Positions 11,063 through 28,892 of a stretch of 52,277 nt of DNA are shown one piece after another. The position numbers were made by a program, and so were the translations under genes. The notes beneath the pieces are model-generated. The model ran no database searches and was not told where the DNA came from. It worked only from the letters and a program-made list of their open reading frames with translations. Source of the DNA: Anaerolineales bacterium. GTDB lineage: Bacteria; Chloroflexota; Anaerolineae; Anaerolineales; Villigracilaceae. The stretch lies in the NCBI GenBank assembly GCA_017882145.1, contig JADGQB010000003.1, positions 1 through 52,277 on the forward strand, read 5' to 3'. How positions within the stretch are numbered: position 1 is the stretch's first letter; each line of letters opens with the position of its first letter.

Positions 11063-12048
11063 TGTAGCTCTCCCATTTTTACATCCAACCAGCAAGCCAT
11101 GGAATGCTCGTTTCCCAAAGCTTTGAGAGGCGGATTCTCCAGCCTACATTTTTCTACAACATACTCGCAGCGCGATGCGAATGGACAGCCTGACGGTTCG
11201 ACCAATAAATTAGGCGGCGCGCCGGGGATTGATTTGAGACGACTTTCGCGTCGGCGCTCTGCATGTGGCAGGGCAGCCATTAAGGCCAGTGTGTAAGGAT
11301 GGCGCGGGTTTTCATAAAGTGTATCAACATCCGCTTCTTCGACGATGTATCCGGCATACATGACGATAACGTGCTCAGCCAACCCGGCCACCACGCCCAA
11401 ATCATGCGTGATCCAGATGATGCTCAGGCCAATCTTGTCGCGCAGCTCCTTGACGAGTTCTATGATCTGGGCCTGGATGGTCACATCCAGAGCCGTGGTT
11501 GGTTCGTCGGCGATCAACATGGTCGGATTACAAGCCAACGCCATGGCAATCATTACCCGTTGGCGCATTCCTCCGGAAAACTGGTGCGGATAATCCCCAA
11601 GACGCTTTGAAGGATCAGGAATACCAACCAGCTCCAGCAGATCGACGGCGCGCTTCCGAGCCTGGTCCGGCTGGTAATTAAGATGGACACGCAGCGGTTC
11701 GGTCAATTGACGGCCGATGGTTAGTACCGGGTTAAGCGAGGTCATTGGATCCTGGAAGACCATGGCTATCTCTTTGCCACGGATATCACTCTGCATGCTG
11801 TTTTCGCTCAATTTAAGCAGATCCTGACCGTGATAATTTACAATTCCACTGACAATCTCACCCGGTGGGATGGGGATGAGGCGCAAAAGCGACATCATCG
11901 TGACTGATTTACCGCATCCACTTTCTCCAACAACTGCCAGGGTTCCCCCTTCTTCCAGGCTGAACGAAACGCCGTTCACAGCAAAGACAGTCCCTTCCGG
12001 TGTGTGGAAACGGGTTATGAGGTTTTTGACTTCGAGAAGAATAGTCAT
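11059..12048 (-). CDS. Peptide-type ABC transporter ATP-binding protein (DppD/OppD-like)
   Basis: This is the first ATPase of the importer. Walker A is GESGCGKS, the signature is FSGGMRQRV, Walker B is [12 protein letters not shown] and the H-loop is [11 protein letters not shown]. The C-terminal extension has [13 protein letters not shown], the cysteine-bearing tail of oligopeptide ATPases. The likely start is ATG 12048, seven bases after the permease stop, with GAGG upstream. A longer frame from 12108 would overlap the permease gene by about 50 bases and add 20 residues unlike the family. It drives import together with the second ATPase and the two permeases. Confidence 0.94.
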
Positions 12049-12055
12049 AGGTGCC

Positions 12056-13018
12056 TCATATCGTACGGCTGCGGGGGTCGAGCGCATCGCGCAGTCCGTC
12101 TCCAACAAAATTAATGCTCAGGACAATGAGCAGTATCAGTAATCCGGGGAAGAGCCACAGCCAGTATGCTTTATCTATATAGTTGTAGGCACCTTCGAGC
12201 ATATTACCCCAGGTGGCAGTCGGCGGACGAACGCCCAGCCCGAGAAAGCTGATATACGCTTCGAGGGTGATGGCGTTGGCGACACCCAGCGTCGCTGACA
12301 CGACTATGGGAGCAATGCTGTTTGGGAGGATATGGCGGAAGATGATATCGAATGTGGATGATCCTGTCGCGCGCGCTGCCAGTACGAATTCGCTCTCTTT
12401 CAGCGTCAGGAATTCGGCGCGTACAATCCTTGCCAGGTAAGGCCAGGAAGTCAGGCCAATAATGGCGATGATGACAACCACGCTCCCGCTGAATTCCCGC
12501 CCGAGGATGGTGAGATTGGGGATATTGCCTGCGAAGAATTTTGCCATGACCAGTAACAGGAATATTTGCGGAACGATCAGGATGGCTTCGGTAAAACGCA
12601 TCAACAGGCTGTCAACCAGGCCGCCGAAATAACCGGAAACAGCTCCAATAATGATTCCCAATGTTGTTTCAAGCATTACGGCAATCAGGCCAATTAGCAG
12701 GGAGATCTGTCCGCCGTAAATGGTGCGGGCCAGGATATCCCTTCCGATCACGTCAGTGCCGAAGGGGTGCACTGACGATGGCGGCTGCAGTGCAATGCCG
12801 GTATCGTTATAGTTGGCGAATTTTTCGCTAAAAACAAGCCCGCCAAGCGTGCAATATAAGATCATCAAGACCAGGATGCCCACTCCAACCAATGCCATTT
12901 TATGGCGTCGGAACTTCAACCAGGCCATTTTACTGAGCGTAAGCGGCGGGGCTTCCAGTTCGTCCAGGGAAAGCGGTTTCAATGGTTGGATATTCGGTAA
13001 AGGATTTGCGACTGTCAT
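12056..13018 (-). CDS. Peptide-type ABC transporter permease (DppC/OppC-like)
   Basis: This is the second inner-membrane subunit of the importer, about 320 residues from ATG 13018. A polar N-terminal tail of about 30 residues leads to the first membrane helix, followed by the small OppC N-terminal domain and a BPD_transp_1 domain with about five helices. The EAA-type cytoplasmic loop that contacts the ATPase is visible as EFVLAARATGSSTFDIIFRHILPNS. Motifs HPFGTDVIGRDILART and GNMLEGAYNYI are typical of DppC proteins. It starts seven bases after the first permease and stops seven bases before the ATPase, so expression is coupled. Confidence 0.94.
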   Translation of the reverse strand: MTVANPLPNIQPLKPLSLDELEAPPLTLSKMAWLKFRRHKMALVGVGILVLMILYCTLGGLVFSEKFANYNDTGIALQPPSSVHPFGTDVIGRDILARTIYGGQISLLIGLIAVMLETTLGIIIGAVSGYFGGLVDSLLMRFTEAILIVPQIFLLLVMAKFFAGNIPNLTILGREFSGSVVVIIAIIGLTSWPYLARIVRAEFLTLKESEFVLAARATGSSTFDIIFRHILPNSIAPIVVSATLGVANAITLEAYISFLGLGVRPPTATWGNMLEGAYNYIDKAYWLWLFPGLLILLIVLSINFVGDGLRDALDPRSRTI

Positions 13019-13025
13019 GGCGGCT

Positions 13026-14057
13026 CTAATTGTAGCGAATGCGAGGGTCCAGCCAGGCGTAAACAACGTCGGTGAGGATCTGGAAAACTACGACGGCAAC
13101 GGCGATCAACATCATGATACCCATAACCACCGGTGTATCGCCGCGTGAAACATGATCGATGAATAGTCGTCCCATGCCGGGCCAGGCGAAGATCCGTTCG
13201 GTCACCAGAGCCCCGCCCAGCAGGAAGGGCAGGTCGAGACCGACGATGGTAACGATCGGCAGGGAAGCATTTTTCAAGGCATGGATGAATACGGTTTCAC
13301 GGCGCGGTAGGCCTTTTGCGCGCGCCGTGCGGATATAATCCTGGTTCAAGGCCTCCAGCATCGTACTTCGGATATATCGGCTGTACCCTGAAAAGCTGTT
13401 GACCGAGATCACGGTCACCGGCAGAATCAAATGCCACAGCAGCTGACCGGGTGTCTGTCCCGCTTGAGGGTCGAACATCCCCACAGTAGGTAGATAGGGT
13501 AGTCCCCATCGTTTGAAGTTGACCGCGAAAATATACATGGCTCCCAATGCCAGGAAGAATATCGGCATGGAATAGCCAATGAAGGATAAAGTAGTTATCA
13601 GATTATCGAAAAACGAATACTGCTTTAAAGCTGAATAAACACCAATGAACAGCGCCCCTAGTACAACCACAAGTTCAGAAACCAACATCAGCAGAAGTGT
13701 GTTAGGCAGGCGCGATAGGATGAGTTGCATTGCTGGTTGCCTTGTCACCAGGGAAGTCCCAAAATCACCTCGCAGGACCCCCTTACGAATGCCGGGGGTT
13801 TCAGCTATCCCATCGCCGTTAATATCTACTTTTGTCCAGTCATTCCCTACCAGCCAGTAAACATATTGCACCAGGATCGGCTTGTCAAACCCAAACTGGC
13901 GGGCCAGCCGCTCGCGGTCTTCACGACGCGTTACCGAACGCCCGCCCATCGTGGCAAGCGGATCGCCCATGTTCTGCAACATTACGAACAGCAGGATGCT
14001 GATGAGGAACACAAGTGGAATTCCCTGTAAAAGGCGTCGAATAATATATCGGGTCAT
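13026..14057 (-). CDS. Peptide-type ABC transporter permease (DppB/OppB-like)
   Basis: This is the first inner-membrane subunit of the importer, 343 residues. The N-terminus (YIIRRLLQGIPLVFLISIL) forms the first helix and matches DppB proteins, followed by a periplasm-type domain and a BPD_transp_1 region with about five helices. The ATPase-contact loop reads DYIRTARAKGLPRRETVFIHALKN. One unusual point is an insert at about residues 70-90 containing DINGDGIAETPG, which resembles a calcium-binding D-x-D-x-D-G loop; this is seen in some relatives and its function is unknown to me. A perfect 13-bp hairpin separates this gene from the binding-protein gene upstream. Confidence 0.94.
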   Translation of the reverse strand: MTRYIIRRLLQGIPLVFLISILLFVMLQNMGDPLATMGGRSVTRREDRERLARQFGFDKPILVQYVYWLVGNDWTKVDINGDGIAETPGIRKGVLRGDFGTSLVTRQPAMQLILSRLPNTLLLMLVSELVVVLGALFIGVYSALKQYSFFDNLITTLSFIGYSMPIFFLALGAMYIFAVNFKRWGLPYLPTVGMFDPQAGQTPGQLLWHLILPVTVISVNSFSGYSRYIRSTMLEALNQDYIRTARAKGLPRRETVFIHALKNASLPIVTIVGLDLPFLLGGALVTERIFAWPGMGRLFIDHVSRGDTPVVMGIMMLIAVAVVVFQILTDVVYAWLDPRIRYN

Positions 14058-14080
14058 TGGATATTTGGGTAAACTTTGGA

Positions 14081-14115
14081 GGATGTTGCAGGAACCGGTT
14101 GGTCCTGCAACATCC
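14081..14115 (-). promoter_or_regulatory. Perfect 13-bp intercistronic hairpin after the binding-protein gene
   Basis: The bases GGATGTTGCAGGA (14081-14093) and TCCTGCAACATCC (14103-14115) are exact inverted repeats around a 9-base loop. The hairpin lies between the stop of the substrate-binding gene and the start of the first permease. No run of T follows on the minus strand, so it is more likely a 3'-end stabiliser or partial attenuator than a full terminator. Such hairpins commonly raise the binding protein level over that of the permeases. Confidence 0.75.
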
Positions 14116-14142
14116 AGTATCAGGAAGGATTAGGATCCGTAC

Positions 14143-15780
14143 TTACTTGATGGTCCATTCTCCAATATTATAGAGCGGCGTGGAGCCCGAAAGTTTAACA
14201 TTTTGCAGACGGCTGCTGAGCGCCCAGATGTCCGGATCAAGCCACAGGCTTAGCCAGTAAACCTGATCGTACATTATCTTCGTAATTTGATGGAAGGTTG
14301 CGACGCGCTGGTTGTAATCCACCTGGGTGGCCTGCTTTTGGAAGAGTCCATCCAGCTGCTTGTCGCACAGGAATTGGGCGTTCAACCCTTGCGGGTTTTG
14401 ATCGCTGGGGATCTCACTGCACAGCCAGTAGGCAATATCCGGATCGGGGAAGGCCGTGGGGACATCCGACCACTCGTAAATATCGAGTTCGCCGGAATAA
14501 GTCGGGCCTTTGTCCGCATAGCTGGCGAAAAAGATATCGCTGTCATAGTTCAATAACTCAACCTTGACGCCGACACTGGCCAGTTCCTGCTGAATGATCG
14601 CCTGCGCGCTCTGGCGGACATCCCGGGTCGTTGTGCCGTAGCGTAGGTCAAGCTTGACACCGTTCTTCTCACGCACGCCGTCAGACCCCATCACCCAACC
14701 AGCCTGGTCCAGCAGCGATTTGGCTTTCGCCGGGTCGAATGGGTACGGCTTCAGCGAAGGATCTACATAGGGCATATTATCCCATAGAGTTGCACCCGGC
14801 TTGGTCTTGCCGAGCAGCAGGTCTTTGGAAATCTTATCGCGATCGATCGCGTAAGCCAAAGCCTGTCGGACAAGCACATCTTTAAGGGCGGGATTACCCT
14901 TTTCACCCATGTTGAAGTACAAGCCTTCACTGTAGCCTGAGTTGACCGAGGCGATTTTCACACCCGCTTCCTCGAGCGGTGGGATGTCGGGATAGGAAAT
15001 AAATATACCGAGATCGCCGTCGCCTGTCTTGAGAGCGGCTACCTGCGCAGCGTCATCCGGAACGATGCGGACAAAAATCTCGTCCAGGCTGGCCTTTTTA
15101 CCCCAAAACTTGTCATTCCTTACAAACCGCAGGAACGACCCGGATTGCCATTCGGCGAATACAAATGGGCCCGCTCCGACGGTCGGAGCTTTATTCCATG
15201 CAGCGTTATCCAGTGTGCCGTCTTTTTGGAAGACCGGGTTCAGGATGTGTTCCGGGAGCATGCCTTTCCAGAAGGATAACCACGGCGCAAACGGCGCATC
15301 GAATTTCATCACCACAGTGCGATCATCGGGTGTTTCGAGACTGGCAAGCTTACTGTACGGATAGGTCGTCGCCACGGCATTTTTGGGATTGATATACATC
15401 TCGTAGGTGAATTTAAAATCCGCCGAAGTGATCGGCTGACCGTCTGACCAGATGATATCCTTCCGTAGATGCATGGTAATGGTCTTGCCATCCGCGGATA
15501 AACCGCCGTTTTGGATGGTTGGTAATTCGGTTACAAGGTTTGGATAGGGTTTATTCTGATCATCATACTGCCATGCCCACACATCAAAAGCCTGCTGCAG
15601 GATTTGGGAGAAATACATATTTGTGTACATCGTGTTCAAGGATTCAGGCTCTTGGGTAAAAATCAGCGTTGCCACCTTCTTGGCGGCAGGATTCTGGGCC
15701 GTACCACTACAGCCCCCCAGGAGCATGCTCGCGACGATCAAAACTGCTAAACCTGTATACAAAACAGATTTACGTGACAT
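14143..15780 (-). CDS. Peptide-type ABC transporter substrate-binding lipoprotein (family 5)
   Basis: This 545-residue lipoprotein is the extracytoplasmic receptor of the importer (SBP_bac_5 family, which binds peptides, nickel, opines or other small ligands). The N-terminus is a lipoprotein signal peptide with lipobox LLGGC; Cys24 would be lipidated and anchor the protein to the membrane. Family motifs include LRKDIIWSDGQPITSADFKFTYE, split here by its usual spacing, and a QALAYAIDRDKI segment. An AAAGGAGG ribosome-binding site lies just before the ATG, stronger than those of its neighbours, which fits high expression. It sits between two MttB-family genes and the permeases. The ligand cannot be read from sequence; the context suggests a methylated amine conjugate. 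Confidence 0.94.
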   Translation of the reverse strand: MSRKSVLYTGLAVLIVASMLLGGCSGTAQNPAAKKVATLIFTQEPESLNTMYTNMYFSQILQQAFDVWAWQYDDQNKPYPNLVTELPTIQNGGLSADGKTITMHLRKDIIWSDGQPITSADFKFTYEMYINPKNAVATTYPYSKLASLETPDDRTVVMKFDAPFAPWLSFWKGMLPEHILNPVFQKDGTLDNAAWNKAPTVGAGPFVFAEWQSGSFLRFVRNDKFWGKKASLDEIFVRIVPDDAAQVAALKTGDGDLGIFISYPDIPPLEEAGVKIASVNSGYSEGLYFNMGEKGNPALKDVLVRQALAYAIDRDKISKDLLLGKTKPGATLWDNMPYVDPSLKPYPFDPAKAKSLLDQAGWVMGSDGVREKNGVKLDLRYGTTTRDVRQSAQAIIQQELASVGVKVELLNYDSDIFFASYADKGPTYSGELDIYEWSDVPTAFPDPDIAYWLCSEIPSDQNPQGLNAQFLCDKQLDGLFQKQATQVDYNQRVATFHQITKIMYDQVYWLSLWLDPDIWALSSRLQNVKLSGSTPLYNIGEWTIK

Positions 15781-15819
15781 TCTTCCTCCTTTGCATATTG
15801 GGCCAATTATTTAGCACAA

Positions 15820-15856
15820 GCGCCATCGAAAGTGGGTATCCCTGTTCTGATGGCGC
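15820..15856 (-). promoter_or_regulatory. Perfect 8-bp hairpin before the binding-protein gene
   Basis: GCGCCATC (15820-15827) and GATGGCGC (15849-15856) are exact inverted repeats with a 21-base loop that can itself fold (GGG/CCC). The hairpin lies in the 83-base gap between an MttB-family gene and the binding-protein gene. No T-run follows on the minus strand. It could be an RNA-processing or stabilising element at the 5' end of the binding-protein message. Confidence 0.6.
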
Positions 15857-15863
15857 ATGACGA

Positions 15864-17315
15864 TCATCCCAATTTTGGCAGAGCATCCATTCCGGCCTTG
15901 CGGGCCAAATTTTCTACCATCGTCCGTAATTCACGCTCCTGCTCAGGTGAATAACATGGTGGCTCGTATGCAGCCAGCAGTTCACGAGTGCGTGTTTTTG
16001 CCCGGGCAAATGTATCGGGACTGCCAGAGGCCTGCCAACCTCTTATGGAATCCCGATCGATGACTGACGATGGAAGATGCTGTTCTTTGGAGAAGAGATC
16101 GCGGGTAACTTTTTGTTTCAGGAAATCGCCTTTGAAATTAATTCCTTCAAAGAGGGCAGTTGCAAGCGTTTCAGTTCGAACCTGGATGCCAGCCACCAGG
16201 CGCAAGGCCATGCCAATCCCCTCGGCATCCACCACCAATTTTTCCGGGCTTTGACAGGCCAGGAAATCCAACATACCTGCCCCGGAGATCATATTGATGC
16301 CCGCCAGCGCCCCAATGATGGCCGTTACTCCGCTTTCAAGTCCGGCCTGGGCATCCACAACCTTTGCGTCGGACGCACCCAGGTAAGCGTGCGTGGGCAG
16401 ATTTAAGGATTTTCCCACCTGTGCGTACGCAGCGTCAATCATGGCCGTTTCGATGGCGCCCATCGGGGTGGTGCCATGGCGCATATCAAAGATCGCCGGT
16501 GCCCCTCCCCAAACAATCGGCGCGCCCGGGTTGGCGAGCTGATGGATGGCAATCCCGCTCAAGCTCTCCGCAGCATGTTGTACAACCGACCCAAGCAGAG
16601 TCACCGGGGCAGCCGCCCCTGCAAGCGGCATCGAGATAAGTTGTGCCGGAACGCGTGCCTTCGCCAACTCAATCAGATTGTTTGCGCCAAAATCACTCCA
16701 GATCAACGGAGGCGATGGACACACATCGAAAACCGCTTGAGGTTTATCCGCCAATGCCTGACGCCCGCCTGCGAATAGACCCAACATGTCAAACATGATT
16801 GGCAAGTTTTGGACCGAAAACGAGCCAGTCACGATGGGTTTCTGCGAATACATGAGGACTACATAAAGCCGGTAGAAGTCGCCGATCGTCTTGGGGACTT
16901 CATTGCAAACGATGGCAGTCGATTGGGCAGCGTACTCCGGAAGCATTTCCGCTACCTTCACTACCCGCGCCAGGTCTGGGGTATAGGAGGTTTTGTGTTC
17001 CAGTGTATCTGGATCAAGGATATGAACGCCCGATGATCCGGGATCAAACTGGACTGCATCCCCCCCATACCAAACCTTCGGCTGCCCTTTCCGGTCATAT
17101 AGACAGAACTCATCCGGCGTGGTTTCCAGTGCTTTTCGGATAATTTTTTCCGGGATGTTGACCACATCTCCATTGGCCGAAGCGCCTGCGGCAATCAGCA
17201 TTTCACGCGCCGCGGCAGACTGGACTTTGATGCCCGGTTTTTGCATTAATTGGAATGCTTCATCCAAAATACGGGCGATCAAGTCTAGTGACAATAATTC
17301 AAGTTTAGGTTGCAT
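15864..17315 (-). CDS. MttB-family corrinoid-dependent methyltransferase, paralog B
   Basis: This is a 483-residue member of the trimethylamine methyltransferase superfamily, expected to move a methyl group from a methylated amine to the corrinoid protein encoded two genes upstream. The frame has no internal amber codon and ends in TGA, so pyrrolysine is not used. The putative cofactor-facing segment reads GASDAKVVDAQAGLESG at about residues 313-329, close to the pattern I remember from glycine betaine-type members. The ATG lies five bases after the stop of paralog C. It is clearly divergent from A and C over most of its length, so it probably takes a different substrate. The exact substrate is unknown. 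Confidence 0.92.
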   Translation of the reverse strand: MQPKLELLSLDLIARILDEAFQLMQKPGIKVQSAAAREMLIAAGASANGDVVNIPEKIIRKALETTPDEFCLYDRKGQPKVWYGGDAVQFDPGSSGVHILDPDTLEHKTSYTPDLARVVKVAEMLPEYAAQSTAIVCNEVPKTIGDFYRLYVVLMYSQKPIVTGSFSVQNLPIMFDMLGLFAGGRQALADKPQAVFDVCPSPPLIWSDFGANNLIELAKARVPAQLISMPLAGAAAPVTLLGSVVQHAAESLSGIAIHQLANPGAPIVWGGAPAIFDMRHGTTPMGAIETAMIDAAYAQVGKSLNLPTHAYLGASDAKVVDAQAGLESGVTAIIGALAGINMISGAGMLDFLACQSPEKLVVDAEGIGMALRLVAGIQVRTETLATALFEGINFKGDFLKQKVTRDLFSKEQHLPSSVIDRDSIRGWQASGSPDTFARAKTRTRELLAAYEPPCYSPEQERELRTMVENLARKAGMDALPKLG

Positions 17316-17320
17316 TGGGG

Positions 17321-18772
17321 TTATTTAGACTCCAATGAGGATATGATTTTTGACATTTCCAGCTTGATTTTTTCATCCAATGGATCTGGCTGATGAGTCT
17401 CCAGTGTCTTCAAGGCCTTTGCAAGTGCCCAATCACGTGCATCATCCTTTTTCGTTTCCCACTCATTGTAAGGACGCCTATCCATGAACTGAGGCAGGAA
17501 GAGATCCCGCATATGTTTTAAGGTGTGCTTCTGCGAGAGAAAGTTACCTCCCGGTCCGACTGCCGCGATGGCATCCAGCGCCAAGGTTTCATCATCCACA
17601 ATAATTCCCTGCATTGTCTTGTGAATTATGGAAAAGAGCTCACAATCCATCATCATCTCGGCAAACGACCAGATACGGCTGCCGTGCAGGAACCCCACCC
17701 CCAGCAGCATATCCGACATGACAATACATGCCATGAAAGTCGACAGGCTGTTTTCAATCCCGGCCTGCCAGTTCGGCTCCTTGGCGCCGGTTGCAAAAGA
17801 ACCCATGGAAAGAGGAATATCATAAAAATCGGATAATACATTGGTTGCCGCACCGTAGAGGAAATCCTCCGGTCCGCCACCCGTATAGGCACCGGTGCGC
17901 AGATCGGAAGCAGTTTGTGCGGCTGCATAGAAGACGGGAGCACCCGGAAAAGCCAACTGGATCAAGGCCGTCCCGGCAATAACTTCGGCATTGCCGACTG
18001 CCAGGTTGCCTGCCAGTGTCGCTGGACCGGTCGTGAGGTTGGCTGCCATGCTCATAAAACCTGTTGGAATGCCATATTCACCGGCCACAAGCGCCGCATC
18101 CAGGCTGCCGCCATCGTGACCGAGCGGTGAAGCTGAACACTGCATCAACGATAGGACCGGCCTATGGCGTAACTTATCCTTGCCGCCTACCAACAGTCCT
18201 GCCATTTCGACAGCTGCGCGTGCCTCTTGTTCGTTATAGATCGACTCTGTCTGAACATGTTTGGTGGAGTTTTCCCAGATGGCTTTGATCTCGTGCAGAC
18301 CGCGCGTCTCGGGCGGCATATCCTGGGCCGATACCGGTACCCAATGAAAGCCTACTTCTTCTGTTGCATCAGCGATCAGGGAGATGTCGCGCACATCCTG
18401 TAAACACGAGACTCTCCGCTTTCCGCTGTGGATATCAAGCACCTCCACACCGCAGCCATCTGTTCCCACAAAGACATGGTTGCCATCCAGAGGAAGATCC
18501 TGCTGAGGGTCACGTGCCGCCAATTGATAAACCGGTGGACAGGTTTTCAGCGCTTTTTCGATGAGTTCTGCCTTGGCACGAACAACCATCTTTTCGGCAT
18601 CCACCTGCGCGCCATTTGCCGCCCAAATTTCCAGGGCACGTTTGGATGGGAAGCGTACGCCAACTTTTTCTATGATCCACAAGGTGGCATCATGGATTTT
18701 CTTAACTTCCTGGGGTGTCAGGATCTCCAGATGCAGTTTTGGATTGGTAATGGATTTAATTTTTTTGGACAT
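17321..18772 (-). CDS. MttB-family corrinoid-dependent methyltransferase, paralog C
   Basis: This is a third 483-residue member of the family and the one next to the corrinoid protein gene (18 bases apart), so it may be the main partner. The segment matching the cofactor site reads FATGAKEPNWQAGIENS at about residues 326-342; the DAQ seen in A and B is replaced by NWQ. The C-terminal part FLSQKHTLKHMRDLFLPQ resembles FLGQKHTMKYLRTGE of paralog A, showing common descent. The stop is TAA and no amber codon occurs in frame. GGAG lies eight bases before the ATG. The substrate is unknown. Confidence 0.92.
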   Translation of the reverse strand: MSKKIKSITNPKLHLEILTPQEVKKIHDATLWIIEKVGVRFPSKRALEIWAANGAQVDAEKMVVRAKAELIEKALKTCPPVYQLAARDPQQDLPLDGNHVFVGTDGCGVEVLDIHSGKRRVSCLQDVRDISLIADATEEVGFHWVPVSAQDMPPETRGLHEIKAIWENSTKHVQTESIYNEQEARAAVEMAGLLVGGKDKLRHRPVLSLMQCSASPLGHDGGSLDAALVAGEYGIPTGFMSMAANLTTGPATLAGNLAVGNAEVIAGTALIQLAFPGAPVFYAAAQTASDLRTGAYTGGGPEDFLYGAATNVLSDFYDIPLSMGSFATGAKEPNWQAGIENSLSTFMACIVMSDMLLGVGFLHGSRIWSFAEMMMDCELFSIIHKTMQGIIVDDETLALDAIAAVGPGGNFLSQKHTLKHMRDLFLPQFMDRRPYNEWETKKDDARDWALAKALKTLETHQPDPLDEKIKLEMSKIISSLESK

Positions 18773-18790
18773 GCCAAGCTCCGGGTCCGT

Positions 18791-19441
18791 TCAGACTACT
18801 CCAACCAGTCTCTTGGCTAATCCAACCGCGCCAATGGCATCTTCCGAATAACCATCCGCTTCGATTTTTTGGACCCAATCCTTCGTAACCGGGGCGCCGC
18901 CCACCATCACCTTAACTTTCTTGCGGAGTCCGAGCTTATCCAGTTCATCAATTACTTCCTTCTGTTTAACCATGGTGGTTGTAAGAAGAGCACTCAGGCC
19001 GACCAGGTCTGCATCCACTTCCTTGACTTTCTCGATAATCTTAGCCGTAGGTACGTCCACACCCAGATCATAGACCTGGAAGCCGGAGGCTGAGAGCATT
19101 GTCCCAACCAGAGTCTTGCCAATTTCGTGGATATCGCCTTCGACGGTCGCCAGAACCACCTTGCCATAGACCTGGCGTGAGGTACCCCGTTTCTGCATTT
19201 CCGGCTCCAACGTTGCGACTGCGGCCTTCATTGCCTCGCCTGCCATCACCAATTCCGGAAGGAATGCCTGGCCGCAAGCAAAACTTTCACCTACCTGATT
19301 GACACCCACTACGAAACCTTTCGAAATGGCTTCCAATGGATCAATGCCAGAATCGATCGCTTGTTTCGCTAATGCGATGGCAGCGTCAGAATCGCCGTCT
19401 AGGATGCTCTGGGACATTTTCTGGAAGAGTTCATCAGTCAT
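18791..19441 (-). CDS. Corrinoid (B12-binding) protein, MttC/MtgC-like
   Basis: This 216-residue protein carries the corrinoid cofactor that accepts the methyl group from the MttB-family enzymes. It has the usual two parts: a four-helix cap domain (about 1-88) and a Rossmann-like B12-binding domain (about 92-216). The cobalt ligand motif D103-x-H105-x2-G108 is present in GDIHEIG, with GLSALLTTTM and VMVGGAPVT as the second and third binding signatures. ATG 19441 is preceded by AGGAG at seven bases; a start at 19459 would add six residues without a better site. It is the first gene of the long minus-strand operon. RACo at 665-2308 is its probable activator. Confidence 0.95.
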   Translation of the reverse strand: MTDELFQKMSQSILDGDSDAAIALAKQAIDSGIDPLEAISKGFVVGVNQVGESFACGQAFLPELVMAGEAMKAAVATLEPEMQKRGTSRQVYGKVVLATVEGDIHEIGKTLVGTMLSASGFQVYDLGVDVPTAKIIEKVKEVDADLVGLSALLTTTMVKQKEVIDELDKLGLRKKVKVMVGGAPVTKDWVQKIEADGYSEDAIGAVGLAKRLVGVV

Positions 19442-19562
19442 GGAATGCTCCTTCTGCATATAAAAAAATTAAAATTTAGGATTATGGAAATGTTTGATTA
19501 CGTGAATTTAATGGCAAATAATCCGGCCGCCCGAACTTCAGGTTCAGACAGCATTGATTATA

Positions 19563-20018
19563 CTAACCCTTCTCAAAAATCCATCGATCCGAGTCGCGTT
19601 TCCAATCGACGAGTTCAGCGGGGCTGAACCACAGCGCGACTTCTATTTCGCCATTCTCAACCGAGTCGGAAGCATGCGTCAGGTTGCGGCCTACTTCCAG
19701 GGCAAAATCGTGGCGGATGGAACCGGGGGCAGCTTCGGTGGGACGGGTGGCCCCCATCGTCTGGCGGATAGCTGCAACTGCATTTGGGCCTTCCCAGGCC
19801 ATCGCCATGACCGGAGCGGAGGTTATATATTCGATCAAACCATTATAAAAAGGTTTTCCTTTATGGATGGCATAATGGGTTTCCGCCAGTTCCTGGCTTA
19901 CTTGAATGAACTTGGCGGCAACCAACCGTAATCCACGATTTTCGAGCCGTCCAATGACCTCGCCAATCAGTCCGCGTTGAACACCATCAGGTTTGACGAG
20001 CACCAGCGTTCGTTCCAT
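19563..20018 (-). CDS. ndk: Nucleoside diphosphate kinase
   Basis: The 151-residue enzyme moves the gamma phosphate of ATP to other nucleoside diphosphates, keeping NTP and dNTP pools balanced. The active site NLTHASDS carries His115, which is phosphorylated during catalysis, and the N-terminus ERTLVLVKPDGVQRGLIGE is typical. Length is standard. The start has a strong GAGGAGAGG site. A terminator-like hairpin with a T-run lies just before it, so ndk probably has its own promoter or is controlled by read-through. It is followed after about 120 bases by the corrinoid operon on the same strand, which seems functionally unrelated. Confidence 0.97.
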   Translation of the reverse strand: MERTLVLVKPDGVQRGLIGEVIGRLENRGLRLVAAKFIQVSQELAETHYAIHKGKPFYNGLIEYITSAPVMAMAWEGPNAVAAIRQTMGATRPTEAAPGSIRHDFALEVGRNLTHASDSVENGEIEVALWFSPAELVDWKRDSDRWIFEKG

Positions 20019-20136: not shown

Positions 20137-23100
20137 TCACCGTAATAATTCCTCGGCTTTTGTGTAGGCATCCAACGCATCCTGCAAGCGATTGGCTCGC
20201 ATGTAGGCGTCACCCAGGGTCTGCCAGATGATCACATCCACCGGGTAGCGATAAATGGCTTCCCGCAGATCGTGGATGACTTCTTCTAATAAACGGCCCT
20301 TCCTGATAAGCTTCGAATACAACTTCATTGACTCAGCTAATGAATTTTGATCAAGGACTGACTGGGCGCTGGACAAAAGCTCAGCATCCTTATCTAGTGC
20401 CGGAACCAGTGAGAGCATGCCGGTCTGTTTCAAGGTTGGAGGAATAACAGGCGCCTTCCTTGCAAAAGAGACAGGCTCAACCGGTGCTAAAGATTCATCT
20501 GGTGGCACGATTTCTGAAGCCGGGAAAGGTTCGATGACGGGTGGAGGCTCTACAGCCTGGAGCGATTCCGGGTGCGTTAAAGTTTCCGGAAGCTCTTCCG
20601 GTTTCGCTTCGGCCGGGACCCATTCCTCGGGCACGGTCGGAACTGCCTGACTGTCAGCCAGGGTATTTTCATCCACCCAGGCGGGCATCGAAGGTTCTGG
20701 ACCGGATTCGACCTGATCCAGGGGCGCGGGCTGGCGCAACCACTCAGGTAGATCTTCAGCCGGTTTGGAAGATCCTACCGGAGCAACCGGTTTTTCAATA
20801 TCCCTCAACCAGTCAGGTAATTCCTCGGCAGGCGCAGCAGGTTGTATTTCACTCGGTGTATCGGAAGGTTTCGTACCGATGGCTTCTTCCACATCCTTCT
20901 TACTTAACCAGGAAGTTATAGTAATATCGCTTTCATCTGCGACGGACTCAGGCTTGGCTGGGATGGTTTCCTCGGGAGTAGAAACTACAGGGTTTTCATC
21001 CGCTTCCACTTTGGTCCAATCCAGGTCTGGTTCCTGGGCAGATATCGAACCCACCGCCGGCTCTTCCGTTTTTGTATCTTCACTGCCTGAAAGTTCTTCC
21101 AACCAAGCCAATTGATCTTCTTCCTGGGCAGCCGGTGGGGCTGCCATTTCCGGCTTCTCCTCGGATGGAGGCAGTTCTTCCATTCCGGAAACAGGTTCAT
21201 CCGGTGGGGTAATAGGCATCGATTCGACTGGTTTGGCATACAAGCCAAGCGGCTCGAGGGGCAGAGTCCCTTGGGGGCTTCGAGGGGTCTCCTGATCAGT
21301 CGGTGCTGGAGTCTCAACCAAGGGTTCATCAGGGTGCCGCAGCCAATCGGGCATCTCAGCCGAGCGATCCAGAGGATTCGTCAGCAGTTCCTCAGGCTTG
21401 GCACCCTGTTTGGCAGCCAGGCTTTCCAACCAGCCCATCGCGTCGTCCTCAATATTGAGTGGTTTGACCTCGCCGCTAGGCCGGAAGGTTTCGCCGGCAG
21501 TTCCTGTTGAAGAGGCCTTGACTGGTTCCTGGACAACAGGTTTCTGGATGACAGGTTCAGGTTGCACAGGTGGTTGGGGAACAGGTTGTTCTGTTACAGG
21601 TAGCTCTGATACAGGTTGTTCAATTACAGGTTGATCAGCGACAGGTTGTTCTGTTTCAGGCTGTTCCATTACTGGTTGTTCCGCGACAGATTGTTCCGTG
21701 ACAGGATGTTCGCTGGTTTCCGCCAGATTCATTGCTTCAGAAGCAGCCGCAGCCGCGGCTGCCGCACGCGCACCCATACCCGTCAGGAAATCCGGGAAAG
21801 CCTCGGCCCCTTCGATGGGAGCCGCTACGGTCGGCGGTTCGATCGAAGAATCCATGACGGGTACTTCAGCTTTCGTTGCTTCAGGCGCTGCATTGGATTC
21901 AATGGCAGCTTCTTGAAGAAGCACGGATTCCAACCCACCTGGAGTTTCTGGCAGGGTTGCCGGCTCAGATTCGGCGGGTTGCGCGGTTTCTTCCTGCTTT
22001 TGCCTGATTGATTTCAGCCAATCCGGAACATTTTCTTCACTTGGCTGAGCTTCTTGTGGCTGCTGAGTTTCCATATTTTCCTCAGCGGAAGCTTCCGCTG
22101 GGTTTATGGATGAAAGCCAATTCGGGACGGTGTTTTCCAAACTTTCTGGCTGGGGTTCAACTGGCAGTTGTGGTTCTTTTTGTTCCTCAGCGGAAGTTAC
22201 CGCGGGTGCCAGTGAAGACAGCCAATCCGGGACGGTGCTTTCCAAGCTTTCTGGCTGAGGTTCGACTGGCTGTTGAGGTTCTTTTTGTTCCTCAGCGGAA
22301 GTTTCCGCAGGTGCCAGGGAAGACAGCCAATCCGGGGCAGCGCTTTCCATGTTTTCTGGCTGAGCTTCAACTGGCGGTTGGGGTTCTTTTTGTTCCTCAG
22401 CGGAAGTTTCCGCGGGTGCCAGCGAAGACAGCCAATCCGGGACGGCGCTTTCCATACTTTCTGACTGGGATTCGACTGGCGGTTGAGGTTCCTTCTGTTC
22501 CTCACCCGACGGTTCGTCTGCAGTTAAGGAAGCAAGCCAATCCGGCAAGTTGCTTTCCATACTTTCTGGCTGAGGCTCTACTGGAAGTCTAGGTTCTTGA
22601 TGTTCTTCGCTCAATGCTTCGTCTGGAGCTAAAGTAGAAAGCCAAGCCGCGTCGGCATTCTCCATACTTTCTGGCTGAGTTTCGGCTTGCGATTGGGGTT
22701 CTTTATTTTCCTCCCCAATTGCATCTGTTTGAGCCAGGGAAGACTGCCAATCCGGGGTATCTGTCCCCATCGCAGCCTGAGATTCTTCCAGCTTCTTAGG
22801 TTCCACGAGAGTCTCGCCGGCTGCATCTTGGGGGGCAATGGATTTAAGCCAATCCGGAATATCATCATCTTCTGCTGATTGAGGCTCAATTGGCTGTTTG
22901 GGTTCATTTTGCATCGCAATGAAGGTATCCGCTGAATCCACCGGCTTGAGATCTTCAGGCACATATTCGTGCCTCTCGGCCTGAGGCCCGGCGATATCCT
23001 GGGTAGTAATAGATGCCACCGCGGCTGCGCCTGCAGGAGCAATACCTTTGAGCCAATCTGGGATATTATCCTCTTCTGCAGGTTGAATTTCTTCAGGATT

Positions 23101-24714
23101 TTGAGGTTGCTCCTGCCCATCCTTGACAGGATTCGCAGAATCTAGCTGCCCATCCTGATCCCAAGCGCTCAGGTCTGGCGCATATTTGGACTCGGAAACC
23201 TCGGAAGACATGGGTTTGAGAAAATCCGGAAGATCTTCGCCGCCCATAGGTCGAGGCTCAGCCGTCTCCGGGGGTGCAATCTGTTCCGGCCTGGAATTAT
23301 CGGCAGAATTCATGGGAGTAAGCCAATCCGGAAGATCTTTGCTGCCCATTGGTTGAGTCTCATCCGTCTCCTGGGATGCAATCTGCTCCGGCTTGGAATT
23401 ATCAGCTGAATCCATGGGAGTAAGCCAATCCGGAACCTCTTCGCTGCTTACAGGTTGAGGCTCGACCGTCTCCGAGGATGCAGGCTGCTCAAGCCCAGCA
23501 TTATCTGCTGAACCCATGGGAGTAAGCCAATCAGGAAGGCCTGCCTCATTCATAGGCAGAGGTTCCACCGGTTCTTCGGGTTCCTTGTCGGCGGTATTGC
23601 TGGCTTCAGCCGGAGCCATGGACATCATCCATTCAGGAATCTCGGCTTTGGCAATCGGTTCCTGTGGAAGTTCTTCCCCCGCATTAGCAGGAGCTTCTTC
23701 TGCCTTGCCAGTCGAGTCCTGCCAACCAGCAGAGCGCATCCAGTCTGGAATGGTGCTCGCAGCGGCATCATTCGCAGCTACAGGCCCAGGTTCTAAAGCC
23801 GGTGGTGTGGAAGCAGTTGACTCGTCTGCAGCCGGTGAGGATTGCATCCATTCAGGGATAGGTTCTGCCTGCTTCTCATTGTTGACCTTGATTCCCAGCG
23901 AAGAAGACCAATCCGGTTTGGAGCCGGCCGGCATCGCGCCGGACCGGTAATCAAGTCGCTCAATGTTCACAGCCGAATCGGCGACCTTATCCGAAGCAAA
24001 AACAGAATCTATTGCGAAACTTGAATAGGGATCTAGTTGTTGCAAGCGGTTACGATATACCGGCCCATTATCGGCGCGTGCTGTTCCAGGGAGTACATCC
24101 ACCAGGACGCGCAAAGCATCCATACAATATGGATATTTCTTAAGCAGGCCGGCTGCAATTTCCGCAGCTTCAACCTTTTGCCCGGAACGATAATAGGCGC
24201 GTGCCAACATAACCTGTAAATCCGGGCGATTCTGGTCATCGGCCAATACGGAGCGTATCTCAGCGATGGCTTGATTAAAAAGCTCGCCTTGAGAATACAT
24301 GTTGGCCAATGCATCGCGACTCAAACGAATTTTGGAGGGCTCGACCCCATCCCGGCGCCCAAAGAGGCGGCGCAGCTCACCCTGGATGGCCGAGTTGGAT
24401 GGCTGGACCTCAAAAGCACGTTCCATATGCCAGATGGCATCATCCAATCTTCCCTGGTCATCGCGGATGATGCTCATACCAACATGTGACACAAAATCGT
24501 CCGGAACGGCCATGAGAACGCGTTCGAAGATATCGGCTGCGTCTGTATAACGCCGGGCTTCCAGAAAGCTTTTCCCCAGCAGCCGGTAGGTTTCGAGGTG
24601 CATTGGATAAGTTTTGAGGATATGCTGGCAATGAGCGACAGCCTCATCCAATTGCCCACCCTCGATCATACTTTCGATTTCACGATTGTAAACACGCAGG
24701 AACACTGTTTCCAT
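20137..24714 (-). CDS. Giant TPR protein with about 25 P-D-W-L type motifs
   Basis: The 1525-residue product has TPR helices at the N-terminus (about residues 10-215) and again at the C-terminus (about 1435-1525). Between them is a long acidic region, poor in structure and rich in Pro, Glu, Ser and Ala. Within it the short pattern [hydrophobic]-P-[DE]-W-[LM] recurs about 25 times, for example IPDWMRS, LPDWLTPM, IPDWLKSIAP, VPDWLSSLAP and LPDWLRDI. Seven-residue spacing is absent, so this is not a coiled coil; the pattern looks like repeated docking peptides on a flexible chain. There is no signal peptide or membrane helix, so it is probably a cytoplasmic scaffold. AGGAG precedes the ATG and a good promoter lies just upstream. 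I do not know a characterised relative. Confidence 0.85.
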   Translation of the reverse strand: METVFLRVYNREIESMIEGGQLDEAVAHCQHILKTYPMHLETYRLLGKSFLEARRYTDAADIFERVLMAVPDDFVSHVGMSIIRDDQGRLDDAIWHMERAFEVQPSNSAIQGELRRLFGRRDGVEPSKIRLSRDALANMYSQGELFNQAIAEIRSVLADDQNRPDLQVMLARAYYRSGQKVEAAEIAAGLLKKYPYCMDALRVLVDVLPGTARADNGPVYRNRLQQLDPYSSFAIDSVFASDKVADSAVNIERLDYRSGAMPAGSKPDWSSSLGIKVNNEKQAEPIPEWMQSSPAADESTASTPPALEPGPVAANDAAASTIPDWMRSAGWQDSTGKAEEAPANAGEELPQEPIAKAEIPEWMMSMAPAEASNTADKEPEEPVEPLPMNEAGLPDWLTPMGSADNAGLEQPASSETVEPQPVSSEEVPDWLTPMDSADNSKPEQIASQETDETQPMGSKDLPDWLTPMNSADNSRPEQIAPPETAEPRPMGGEDLPDFLKPMSSEVSESKYAPDLSAWDQDGQLDSANPVKDGQEQPQNPEEIQPAEEDNIPDWLKGIAPAGAAAVASITTQDIAGPQAERHEYVPEDLKPVDSADTFIAMQNEPKQPIEPQSAEDDDIPDWLKSIAPQDAAGETLVEPKKLEESQAAMGTDTPDWQSSLAQTDAIGEENKEPQSQAETQPESMENADAAWLSTLAPDEALSEEHQEPRLPVEPQPESMESNLPDWLASLTADEPSGEEQKEPQPPVESQSESMESAVPDWLSSLAPAETSAEEQKEPQPPVEAQPENMESAAPDWLSSLAPAETSAEEQKEPQQPVEPQPESLESTVPDWLSSLAPAVTSAEEQKEPQLPVEPQPESLENTVPNWLSSINPAEASAEENMETQQPQEAQPSEENVPDWLKSIRQKQEETAQPAESEPATLPETPGGLESVLLQEAAIESNAAPEATKAEVPVMDSSIEPPTVAAPIEGAEAFPDFLTGMGARAAAAAAAASEAMNLAETSEHPVTEQSVAEQPVMEQPETEQPVADQPVIEQPVSELPVTEQPVPQPPVQPEPVIQKPVVQEPVKASSTGTAGETFRPSGEVKPLNIEDDAMGWLESLAAKQGAKPEELLTNPLDRSAEMPDWLRHPDEPLVETPAPTDQETPRSPQGTLPLEPLGLYAKPVESMPITPPDEPVSGMEELPPSEEKPEMAAPPAAQEEDQLAWLEELSGSEDTKTEEPAVGSISAQEPDLDWTKVEADENPVVSTPEETIPAKPESVADESDITITSWLSKKDVEEAIGTKPSDTPSEIQPAAPAEELPDWLRDIEKPVAPVGSSKPAEDLPEWLRQPAPLDQVESGPEPSMPAWVDENTLADSQAVPTVPEEWVPAEAKPEELPETLTHPESLQAVEPPPVIEPFPASEIVPPDESLAPVEPVSFARKAPVIPPTLKQTGMLSLVPALDKDAELLSSAQSVLDQNSLAESMKLYSKLIRKGRLLEEVIHDLREAIYRYPVDVIIWQTLGDAYMRANRLQDALDAYTKAEELLR
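21520..21720 (-). repeat. Short repeats coding for P-V-x-E-Q units
   Basis: A stretch of about 200 bases in the TPR gene is made of imperfect 15-base units on the plus-strand pattern GACAGGTTGTTC, coding for repeated EQPV-like pentapeptides. It probably arose by slipped-strand duplication. Confidence 0.7.
22085..22640 (-). repeat. 105-base tandem repeats inside the TPR gene
   Basis: About five imperfect copies of a 105-base unit (35 codons) lie in this stretch. The plus-strand marker GACAGCCAATCCGG recurs at intervals of 105 bases (near 22217, 22322 and 22427). Each unit codes for one PDWLSSLAP motif and an acidic EEQKEPQ linker. The high similarity between copies points to recent duplication, so copy number may vary between strains. 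Confidence 0.8.
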
Positions 24715-24800: not shown

Positions 24801-26096
24801 TCAACTATAGAATAGAGGCAGGGATGGTACAGGCTGAGCACTCCATTTAAAAGCAGACATGACAGTCTCACGAGCCTCGGCCTGCTTTGCCTTATCGTTG
24901 GCATGGATCGTGAAGAGCGGTTGATTCTTTTCCACAAAATCCCCAACTTTTCGATGAATGATAAATCCGACCGCGTGGTCCACGGGATCACCTTTTTTGG
25001 CGCGTCCCGCGCCCAGTGTGACGGCAGCTTCCCCAATGATTCGGGCATTCACCTCGGCGAGATAACCACTCTGGTTGGCTTTGACTACTTCAATGAACTG
25101 TGCAACAGGGAATTTTCGCGTGTCATCCACAAAAGAGACATCCCCGTCCTGAGCGACAACCAGAAGGCAAAATTTCTTGAGAGCGGTTCCCGAGGAAATG
25201 GCCAGCTCTGCCATCCGACGCCCGGCTATAAGGTCGGGAGCGCGCCGGCCTAAAACCAGCATATGCGCGCTGACATGCAGACAGTGTTCGCGGAAATCGG
25301 CCGGGCCGGCTCCTTTAAGAGTATCAACCGCCTCGAGTACTTCCAAAGTATTGCCGACAGCCTGGCCCAGGGGCTGGTTCATATCCGAGAGTAAGGTAAC
25401 AACCTGGCGTCCGGCAAGTTTGCCGATATCGACCATAAGTCCGGAAAGTGCCCGCGCTTCCGCAAGTGTTTCCATGAATGCCCCTAAACCGACCTTTACA
25501 TCCAGCAGGATCGCCTGGGCCCCGGCAGCAATTTTCTTGCTCATAATAGAGGAGGCGATCAACGGGATGGACTGAACCGTACCGGTCACATCCCGAAGCG
25601 CATACAGTTTGCCATCTGCGGGGGCCAGGTCGAGACTTTGACCGGCCAATACAATGCCGATATCCTTTAGTTGTTGTTTGAATTCGTCCGTGCTCAAATT
25701 AACTCGAAAACCGGGGATGGATTCAATCTTATCGAGGGTTCCGCCGCTGAAACCCAGCCCGCGCCCTGACATTTTCCCGACTGGCAGCCCGCAAGCGGCC
25801 ACCACAGGCAGTACGACCAGTGTAGTCTTATCCCCCACTCCCCCAGATGAATGCTTATCGACCGCGATATCTACAACGTCCGACAGATCAAGTATTTCAC
25901 CGGAATGGGCCATTGCCAGGGTCAGGGCAACTGTTTCGCGTGGAGTCATCCCGTTAAGCAGCACAGCCATCGCCCAGGCCGAAACCTGGTAATCGGGGAT
26001 TTCTCCGGTTGTGAAACCATCCACGAAGAATTTGAGCTCATCACTGGTCAACTCCCCTTTTTCACGCTTCTTGATGATCACATCCACCGCACGCAT
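24801..26096 (-). CDS. deoA: Thymidine / pyrimidine-nucleoside phosphorylase
   Basis: The 431-residue enzyme splits thymidine (and possibly uridine) with phosphate into the base and deoxyribose 1-phosphate. Signatures are VDKHSSGGVGDKTT in the phosphate site and GRGLGFSGGTLDKIES, the family pattern. The N-terminal alpha domain, the large alpha/beta domain and the C-terminal domain (from about 345, with the GRAKKGDPVDHAVG segment) are all present. GGAGTG lies before the ATG. Substrate breadth (DeoA or broader Pdp type) cannot be decided here, so the symbol is approximate. It forms a minus-strand run with the two genes upstream and may recycle thymidine. Confidence 0.95.
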   Translation of the reverse strand: MRAVDVIIKKREKGELTSDELKFFVDGFTTGEIPDYQVSAWAMAVLLNGMTPRETVALTLAMAHSGEILDLSDVVDIAVDKHSSGGVGDKTTLVVLPVVAACGLPVGKMSGRGLGFSGGTLDKIESIPGFRVNLSTDEFKQQLKDIGIVLAGQSLDLAPADGKLYALRDVTGTVQSIPLIASSIMSKKIAAGAQAILLDVKVGLGAFMETLAEARALSGLMVDIGKLAGRQVVTLLSDMNQPLGQAVGNTLEVLEAVDTLKGAGPADFREHCLHVSAHMLVLGRRAPDLIAGRRMAELAISSGTALKKFCLLVVAQDGDVSFVDDTRKFPVAQFIEVVKANQSGYLAEVNARIIGEAAVTLGAGRAKKGDPVDHAVGFIIHRKVGDFVEKNQPLFTIHANDKAKQAEARETVMSAFKWSAQPVPSLPLFYS

Positions 26097-27193: not shown

Positions 27194-27856
27194 CTACCTG
27201 ATCATTAAATTCCTGACAGTTTTCCAGACCTCGTCAAACATCTCGACAGTGAGGCGGCCGGTTTGTGTGTTCTGGCGGCTGGGATGGTAAGAGCAGACCA
27301 GGTACCTTCCGTTCGGGATTTCATAAACAGCATTATGAGCAAAGATGATGGTTGGGTCCTGGATGGCAAATATCCGCAGGATTCGTTCAAATGCAATCCG
27401 GCCCAGCACGACAAAAATCTTCGGCTGGATGAGCTCAATCTCGACTTCAAGATATGGCTGGCAGTTAGCCATCTCTGCCGGCGTAGGTTTGTTATCCGGC
27501 GGGGCGCAGCGGCAGACCGGAGCAGTATACAGGTTGGTTAGGGTCAATCCATCCTGACGTGAAATGGATTGCGGTTGGGATGCAAATCCAGCCCTGTAAA
27601 GAGCCGCGTAGAGGAAGTCACCCGATCCGTCCCCGGTGAACTGGCGTCCGGTGCGGTTGGATCCATGCGCTCCCGGAGCCAATCCAACAACGAAGACGCG
27701 TGCCTTCGGATCCCCAAACCCGGGGACAGGTTTTCCCCAGTATTCCTGGTCACGGTAGGCGCGCCGCTTCTCACGCGCCACTTGTTCGCGCCATTCCACC
27801 AGGCGCGGACAGCGCCGGCAGTTGATTAGCTCGTCATTGAGTTCCTGCAAGGTCAT
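27194..27856 (-). CDS. Uracil-DNA glycosylase, family 5 (UDGb)
   Basis: This 220-residue enzyme removes uracil and other deaminated bases from DNA. The motif GLAPGAHGSNRTGRQF is typical of family 5, which lacks the polar Asp/Asn of other uracil-DNA glycosylases at this site, and CSYHPSRQN forms the second active-site motif. Four cysteines that would bind a 4Fe-4S cluster are seen: two in CRRCPR near the start and two in CRCAPP in the middle. The ATG at 27856 has TAGAAT exactly six bases before it on the minus strand and no ribosome-binding site, so it is probably a leaderless message. A TTG at 27862 would add two residues. Confidence 0.93.
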   Translation of the reverse strand: MTLQELNDELINCRRCPRLVEWREQVAREKRRAYRDQEYWGKPVPGFGDPKARVFVVGLAPGAHGSNRTGRQFTGDGSGDFLYAALYRAGFASQPQSISRQDGLTLTNLYTAPVCRCAPPDNKPTPAEMANCQPYLEVEIELIQPKIFVVLGRIAFERILRIFAIQDPTIIFAHNAVYEIPNGRYLVCSYHPSRQNTQTGRLTVEMFDEVWKTVRNLMIR

Positions 27857-27881
27857 ACTCAAATTCTACCCTACATCCAAC

Positions 27882-27909
27882 TTGAAATTCTTCGAAATTG
27901 CGTTACACT
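27882..27909 (+). promoter_or_regulatory. Candidate promoter of the patatin gene
   Basis: TTGAAA (27882-27887) and TACACT (27904-27909) are spaced by 16 bases, a fair sigma-70-type match. Transcription would start about 40 bases before the ATG at 27957. The promoter lies back to back with that of the uracil-DNA glycosylase gene. Confidence 0.5.
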
Positions 27910-27956
27910 TGCTGCATACTGGCTGGCAATCAATCGGATTGTCCAATGGAGGAAAT

Positions 27957-28892
27957 ATGAAACCTTTCCGGAAAAACGTGGCTGTCGCCATTGACGGCGG
28001 TGGCATCCGAGGCGTAATCGCGACCCGTGCGCTCTCGATGCTGGAGAGGCATCTAAGGACACCAGTACATAATGTTTTTCGGTTGGCTGCCGGAACTTCG
28101 ACCGGTTCGATCATTTCGGCAGGCATTGCATCCGGGCTGACTGCTGTCGAACTGCACAGGCTCTACGTCAGCCTGGGCGATTCCATCTTCAAAAAATCCT
28201 GGCGGACTTTCTTCTGGCCGCTTACCCTCTACCGCTATCCCCACGGAGCCCTTGCAAAAGCCCTGCAGGAGTCGATCGGGGATAGAAAAATGGGCGATTT
28301 TTGGTCGGCCAACCCGCGCACCGATGTGGTTATCACCACTTTCGACTTGCTTTCAAACAAGACATGTTTTATTAAACCCTGGAAGCCCGATTACCAGGAT
28401 TGGCCAGTCATTATGGCAATCCTGGCCTCCAGCACTGTCCCCACTTATTTTCCGATCGTCGCAGGCCGGTATGTGGATGGCGGCGTAGGGTCATACGCCA
28501 ATCCCTGCTACCTGGCAGCCTACGAGGCCCAATTCTGTCTGAAATGGGATCCCCGGGAGACAACATTGATCAGTCTGGGTACCGGCCGCAGCCCAAACGC
28601 GGTGCGACCCGGCCAACCAGAGCGTTATATGGCCTGGGAGTGGCTCGCCCCCACCCTGGATGCTTTCCTGGCATCCGCGGAGGACCAGCAGGTTCATCTG
28701 GTGGATACTTTCTTCCAGGACCTGGATTTCCGGCGCTTCCAGGTGGATCTAAATGAGACTATTCCAATGGATGATCCTCGCCAGATTCCAAAATTGATCG
28801 AATATGGGGAAAAAATGGGCACCATGATCCTGAACGACCAGTTGGATGGTGCAATCGGCATCAAACCAAAACCCATACCCAGGCAAGATTGA
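27957..28892 (+). CDS. Patatin-like phospholipase
   Basis: The 311-residue protein is a patatin-type lipid acyl hydrolase with a Ser-Asp dyad. The oxyanion-hole loop DGGGIRG (residues 13-19), the nucleophile Ser48 in GTSTG and Asp174 in VDGG are all present, so it should be active. It has no signal peptide; it probably acts on membrane lipids from inside. I chose ATG 27957, which has GGAGG five bases upstream; the frame extends to 27822, but that part overlaps the divergent glycosylase gene and does not look like patatin. It is a lone plus-strand gene between two minus-strand groups. Confidence 0.93.
   Translation: MKPFRKNVAVAIDGGGIRGVIATRALSMLERHLRTPVHNVFRLAAGTSTGSIISAGIASGLTAVELHRLYVSLGDSIFKKSWRTFFWPLTLYRYPHGALAKALQESIGDRKMGDFWSANPRTDVVITTFDLLSNKTCFIKPWKPDYQDWPVIMAILASSTVPTYFPIVAGRYVDGGVGSYANPCYLAAYEAQFCLKWDPRETTLISLGTGRSPNAVRPGQPERYMAWEWLAPTLDAFLASAEDQQVHLVDTFFQDLDFRRFQVDLNETIPMDDPRQIPKLIEYGEKMGTMILNDQLDGAIGIKPKPIPRQD

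Follow-up and report, generated by a model that had tools for sequence, protein, structure and literature searches.

What reads a short tryptophan motif that a bacterial protein repeats many times over along a disordered chain? The question is raised by a gene in the window, by which we mean the whole stretch of 52,277 nucleotides of Anaerolineales DNA that was analysed here. For its product, the original prediction had pictured a scaffold with about 25 P-D-W-L motifs on an acidic chain between TPR ends, each motif docking the same partner. The gene, its domains and its neighbours are as follows:

20137..24714, minus strand: gene of the TPR - PDWL array - TPR protein (open reading frame and translation, 1525 aa)
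23935..24714, minus strand: N-terminal TPR domain, residues 1-260 (Pfam; AlphaFold2)
20425..23934, minus strand: acidic Pro/Glu/Ala-rich disordered chain, residues 261-1430 (motif counts; low pLDDT between the motifs of an orthologue)
20140..20394, minus strand: C-terminal TPR domain, residues 1441-1525 (Pfam TPR_2 at 1496-1523)
24801..26096, minus strand: pyrimidine-nucleoside phosphorylase, upstream neighbour (Pfam)
19563..20018, minus strand: nucleoside diphosphate kinase (ndk), downstream neighbour (Pfam)

Pfam matches to TPR families are confined to both ends of the protein (for example residues 19-73, 146-195, 164-206 and 1496-1523), with none between, and by gathering score they place it in the TPR clan (TPR_19 61 bits against 25, TPR_2 52.6 against 27, TPR_16 47 against 33). 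In the AlphaFold2 model the N-terminal domain is built from six TPR hairpins and a closing strand (residues 250-252 beside 3-5), with a mean pLDDT above 93 across nearly all of residues 1-260; the C-terminal TPR domain, modelled in an orthologue, likewise exceeds 93 and is kept in most distant homologues. The 1170-residue linker between them is rich in E, P and A and carries 248 D/E against 57 K/R, so the picture of an acidic motif chain between TPR ends is accurate. A fold search of the TPR part against the PDB returned generic TPR superhelices alone and no specific TPR protein. O-GlcNAc transferase and other TPR superhelices were its best sequence and fold matches, with only the generic TPR repeat in common (TM-score about 0.3, rmsd mostly 15-19) and no catalytic domain here. 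The repeats also resemble those of MamA, PrsT and PilW in NCBIfam (E down to 2e-13); identity with any of the three was rejected at 50.3 of 200, 46.8 of 312 and 23 of 154 bits, far under the NCBIfam cut-offs.

The pyrimidine-nucleoside phosphorylase gene precedes the TPR gene in 71 of 81 loci, and ndk lies after it in 33 of 81 loci of the order and adjoins it in 11 of 20 distant ones; this retained neighbourhood supports the orthology of the TPR gene across the phylum. A plus-strand open reading frame at 22008-22592 runs antisense to the repeat array and is most likely not a gene. Elsewhere in the window, positions 10079-19459 hold genes of a peptide-type ABC transporter, then two 483-aa proteins that are similar to one another and a corrinoid-type protein, which we take to resemble trimethylamine methyltransferases (MttB family). 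A plus-strand gene at 27822-28892, between genes of the opposite strand, presumably encodes a patatin-like phospholipase.

Four features of the linker bear on the origin of the motifs:

23722..23751, minus strand: motif IPDWMRSAGW, residues 322-331 (alignments A4/A5; AlphaFold2)
23223..23538, minus strand: 102-bp tandem array, 3.1 copies, one PDWL per copy (TRF)
22078..22713, minus strand: 105-bp tandem array, 6.1 copies, one PDWLSSL-type motif per copy (TRF; codon comparison of copies)
21337..21450, minus strand: composite element EDDAMGWLESLAAKQGAKPEELLTNP...MPDWLR, residues 1089-1126 (consensus; genus alignment)

The motif total depends on the definition used: the linker holds 14 matches to [LIV]P[DE]W[LM], 18 to P[DE]W and 19 to P[DEN][WF][LM], and 23 of its 28 Trp residues are followed directly by L, M, I or V. 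The array itself is therefore real, while the predicted number of about 25 holds only loosely. Shuffles that preserve composition (n=2000) rule out a chance origin, with means of 0.0075, 0.85 and 0.10 and maxima of 1, 5 and 2 for the same three patterns. Tandem duplication, as delimited by TRF, accounts for about nine of the copies and is not the sole source, since the others stand in differing surroundings (for example at residues 286, 322, 359, 551, 619, 896, 1122, 1299 and 1322), as had been predicted. Across the order the most constant position is IPDWMRSAGW, whose columns are nearly invariant (consensus IPDFLRxAGWGES, alignments A4/A5), and the composite element recurs in orthologues with the consensus EQDDAxAWLESLAAKxGAKPEELxT. 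We also observed that the composite element DDTMAWLEGLAAKQGAKEEELLTKPEDRLEEVPEWLR is multiplied several times in one genus-level orthologue (L130:4157-8947), where the amplified unit differs from that of the window, and that a short 15-bp repeat at 21581-21711 of the window encodes (V/T)EQPV-like units of the linker that lack Trp.

The motifs are widely retained. Of the 41 genomes of the order, 40 gave a match to the N-terminal domain, either an orthologue or a TPR relative, and in 39 of these the best match was a clear orthologue at 36-86% identity, the exception among the 40 being an incomplete genome (G006). Every orthologue that was read contains the motif, with 2-24 copies each when fragments are included and 5-20 in the 58 complete orthologues (the window protein and 57 from named records); the orthologues span 759-1597 aa. 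When eight proteins are aligned at genus level, the TPR ends are 82% (N-terminal) and 78% (C-terminal) identical, and the non-motif linker is 33% identical against 72% for the motif four-mers, with Trp identity of 84% in motifs and 94% elsewhere in the linker; these linker values are approximate, the repetitive chain aligning uncertainly, and the contrast is nonetheless large. Conservation of Trp and motif amid drifting linkers, which the original prediction had anticipated along with recurrence in relatives, supports the view that the motifs are under selection.

We give next to no credence to the idea that the arrays are neutral low-complexity repeats left by replication slippage, which is already contradicted. 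The 102 and 105 bp arrays of the window, together with near-identical units in two distant membrane proteins (L359 and L360), are what slippage would leave; yet the motif residues are fixed between species where linkers drift, the fixed Leu codon differs synonymously between copies of the 105-bp array, the motif arose in different contexts and proteins, and across the 251 genomes scanned the arrays are limited to those with the TPR protein.

The conserved motif is predicted to form a short helix. A logo of 384 instances from 35 proteins reads [DE]-[DE]-[LIVM]-P-[DE]-W-[LMV]-[KRQ]-x-[LAM], of which only the positions outside the P-x-W-Φ core by which the instances were chosen are informative; E/D is favoured at -5, -4 and -1 relative to the Trp. 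Without core selection, a logo on every linker Trp still has P at -2 in 64%, D/E at -1 in 61% and L at +1 in 65%. In the AlphaFold2 model of window residues 1-360, order extends to residue 260 and disorder follows, broken only at IPDWMRSAGW, where a helix is predicted with pLDDT 75 against 42-57 for the linker. A full-length 782-aa orthologue (L143) is modelled with both TPR ends confident and with 9 of its 12 linker Trp in short helices, against 23% expected; its ten-residue blocks have a pLDDT of 61 with Trp and 44 without (p = 7e-5). The raised pLDDT and predicted helices at the motifs fit a peptide that folds on binding, but they could also stem from conservation in the alignment and from helix propensity, with no part played by docking. 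A Trp-Leu face on short predicted helices would also suit amphipathic anchors at the membrane interface in place of protein docking sites, and one motif carrier, described below, is a membrane protein. We consider such anchors very improbable: the strongly acidic flanks disfavour binding to the anionic membranes of bacteria, each helix extends for no more than about one to two turns, and the dependence of the arrays on the TPR protein would be left unaccounted for.

Within its own genome the motif is concentrated rather than general. A DNA pattern gives 107 matches against 54 in a reversed control, yet searches with a motif profile, from which the genome-wide counts are taken, find clusters in two proteins only: the TPR protein and an 851-aa protein on another contig (C386, L096:5168-7723). 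No further array was found among the 30 single-pattern loci read. Three relatives (G017, G023, G036) have the same two carrier loci and no more by the motif profile, and an order relative that lacks both proteins (G038) gives three stray weak matches only. From the N-terminus onwards, the second carrier has a zinc-ribbon-like motif, a disordered stretch bearing 11 motifs, one transmembrane helix, a domain of about 220 aa and another transmembrane helix. Judging by the positive charges outside the two helices, its ends would both be cytoplasmic. Its motif logo is the same as that of the TPR protein. The zinc ribbon scores below the Pfam cut-off (Zn_Ribbon_1, 22.8 bits against 25), and no Pfam match over cut-off, no NCBIfam match and no PDB match for the C-terminal domain assign the protein to a known family. 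It is present in 38 of the 41 order relatives and sits in a cluster with the order DUF6754, polytopic protein, zinc-ribbon/PxWL protein, polytopic protein, MutL-like ATPase (PF13941) and a further protein, an arrangement retained in distant Chloroflexota families. DUF6754 occurs in 60 of 251 genomes of the phylum, nearly the same set as the zinc-ribbon protein (63), and in 0 of 14 control genomes. In the genome of the window the cluster (L096:3779-11231, on G000:C386) includes a protein with a weak RnfC_N-like match.

Which of these genes do the arrays follow across the phylum? Among 251 genomes the TPR family is found in 101 and the membrane protein in 63, with both in 53 and neither in 140. 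Arrays, defined as four or more matches to a broadened PxWL profile (A6), occur in 50 of the 251 genomes, 49 of which hold the TPR family. They are associated with that family, being present in 49 of 101 TPR-positive and 1 of 150 TPR-negative genomes (Fisher p = 1.7e-22, uncorrected for shared descent). The sole exception (G085) has a 709-aa fragment of the TPR protein that begins at a contig end and bears 10 PxWL motifs and the C-terminal TPR; truncation of the TPR gene at the contig edge leads us to reject it as an array genome without the TPR protein. When only genomes with the membrane protein are compared, arrays are found in 47 of the 53 that have the TPR family, against 1 of the 10 that lack it, again G085 (p = 1.9e-6, uncorrected for shared descent, the other nine TPR-negative genomes representing about three independent lineages). 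The membrane protein itself carries 5-63 PxWL motifs in 19 of the 25 TPR-positive genomes that were examined, and no more than two in the nine TPR-negative ones. Family f13 of the order repeats the pattern on a small scale: two genomes (G036, G234) have the TPR protein and arrays, two (G192, G220) have neither and one (G199) has only a partial TPR match, the last three holding 1-2 motifs each. The same motif, on an unrelated membrane protein and on homologues phylum-wide, bears out the expectation of a lineage-wide code.

The carrier varies with lineage. In the Chloroflexia-like families f33 and f43 the membrane protein has 14-63 PxWL copies, such as SDVPAWLREEA, and the TPR protein has few Trp. 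Several f33/f43-like TPR proteins (L300-L303, L319) have linkers of more than 1000 residues, yet few Trp. The membrane proteins L359 and L360 (f33) have 49-62 PxWL motifs in short near-identical units and 66-72 Trp ahead of the C-terminal domain; these rank with the densest Trp motif arrays of this analysis. Conversely, in two genomes where the membrane protein was not detected (G237, G116) the arrays lie on the TPR protein, which in G237 repeats an EEPDWMKQI-type motif about eleven times; other variants on the TPR protein are DWRAELR (G116) and DADWLSEL (G253). Arrays occur only alongside the TPR family, whether or not the membrane protein is present, and this makes the TPR protein, or something co-inherited with it, the leading candidate for what reads the motif, the co-occurring pocket protein that the original prediction had sought. 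Profile A6 finds no arrays in six genomes with both proteins (G025, G043, G059, G101, G163, G253), which implies that the TPR protein also has a role independent of PxWL.

The phrase "co-inherited" matters, because any gene distributed like the TPR family fits equally well. A third receptor that docks the motifs of both proteins, leaving the TPR ends to bind something else, would be expected to put one motif on two unrelated carriers and would suit the Chloroflexia-like TPR proteins, themselves poor in W motifs. It would also suit the absence of excess conservation in the groove of the N-terminal TPR domain, where the classical concave positions are overall no more conserved than others (p = 0.96 near, 0.075 far), a result that also speaks against the TPR as receptor; some of these positions are invariant (R7, R44 and L51 on the near side, D165 and the W at position 175 on the far side). 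We nevertheless judge a third receptor rather unlikely, since the arrays track the TPR family and not the membrane cluster, and no extra protein is needed. A pocket might be dispensed with altogether if the Trp motifs were mutual stickers, their chains associating weakly as sticker-and-spacer polymers into a condensate or a mesh beneath the membrane. The high and variable copy number (3-24 motifs in the TPR protein and as many as 63 PxWL in the membrane protein), the regular spacing, the drifting acidic spacers and the rapid tandem expansion are in keeping with this. Stickers, however, need aromatics alone, whereas here P, D/E/A, W, L and the hydrophobic residue at +4 are constrained jointly, and lineage-specific fixed sequences such as EEPDWMKQI and DADWLSEL resemble peptide recognition; mutual stickers therefore strike us as improbable.

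Reading of the motif by the TPR family would have parallels in two known systems, neither of which proved homologous in the tests made. The TPRs of kinesin light chain bind W-acidic peptides (PMC5450233, PMC6214655), likewise Trp amid acids on a disordered chain, with a TPR as the candidate receptor here. The present system is bacterial, with up to 63 motifs per chain as against one or two, and has a fixed Pro (-2) and a fixed Leu (+1); binding by its candidate TPR is a proposal, and no sequence relationship between the motif carriers was found. PEX5 joins a disordered half with several Trp-helix motifs (WxxxF/Y) to a TPR half (PMC8086558, PMC11024197) and shares with our protein a membrane-side partner and a W at i with a hydrophobic residue at i+4. 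Its motifs, however, bind PEX14/PEX13 and not its own TPR, whereas here TPRs stand at both ends, the membrane protein bears the motif and not the pocket, and there is no sign of protein import. The motifs here do not conform to WxxxF/Y, having L/A/M/I at +4 after the Trp, a PDWL core and a place between two TPR domains, and the PEX5 TPRs appeared in the fold search as generic TPR matches with poor superposition.

We favour, at a confidence that stays short of even, the reading of PxWL as a multivalent docking helix that the TPR protein would read and that would tie a soluble scaffold to a membrane complex. Each P-x-W-L motif would fold into one or two helical turns, capped by Pro-Asp, with Trp, Leu and the hydrophobic residue four after the Trp on one face, acids before it and Lys/Arg behind. 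The receptor would most likely be the conserved TPR domain of the same protein family. In Anaerolineales, where the motifs lie on the TPR protein itself as well as on the zinc-ribbon membrane protein, the TPR protein may associate with itself or compete in cis; in the Chloroflexia-like families the membrane protein bears nearly all of the motifs. Many copies of the TPR protein could thus be gathered on the cytoplasmic tail of a putative complex of DUF6754, two polytopic proteins, the zinc-ribbon/PxWL protein and the MutL-like ATPase, with motif number setting avidity.

Slightly more tentative still is the broader proposal that this constitutes a docking system of the whole phylum Chloroflexota that was undescribed before, in which a TPR scaffold would read a PxWL code carried, in up to about sixty repeats, by the cytoplasmic tail of a membrane complex that includes a MutL-like ATPase, the code having drifted by lineage (PDWL, PAWL, PDWM, DADWL) and its carrier having shifted between TPR and membrane protein. 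Searches of open-licence papers for the motif, for DUF6754 and for Chloroflexota motif proteins returned nothing relevant. Docking of repeated short linear motifs on a helical-repeat receptor is best known in eukaryotes. If our reading is true, multivalent scaffolding would gain a natural model in a bacterial system whose motif, in dozens of copies, is kept phylum-wide and is common to two unrelated proteins; the system would also offer a first handle on a conserved Chloroflexota membrane complex of no known function.
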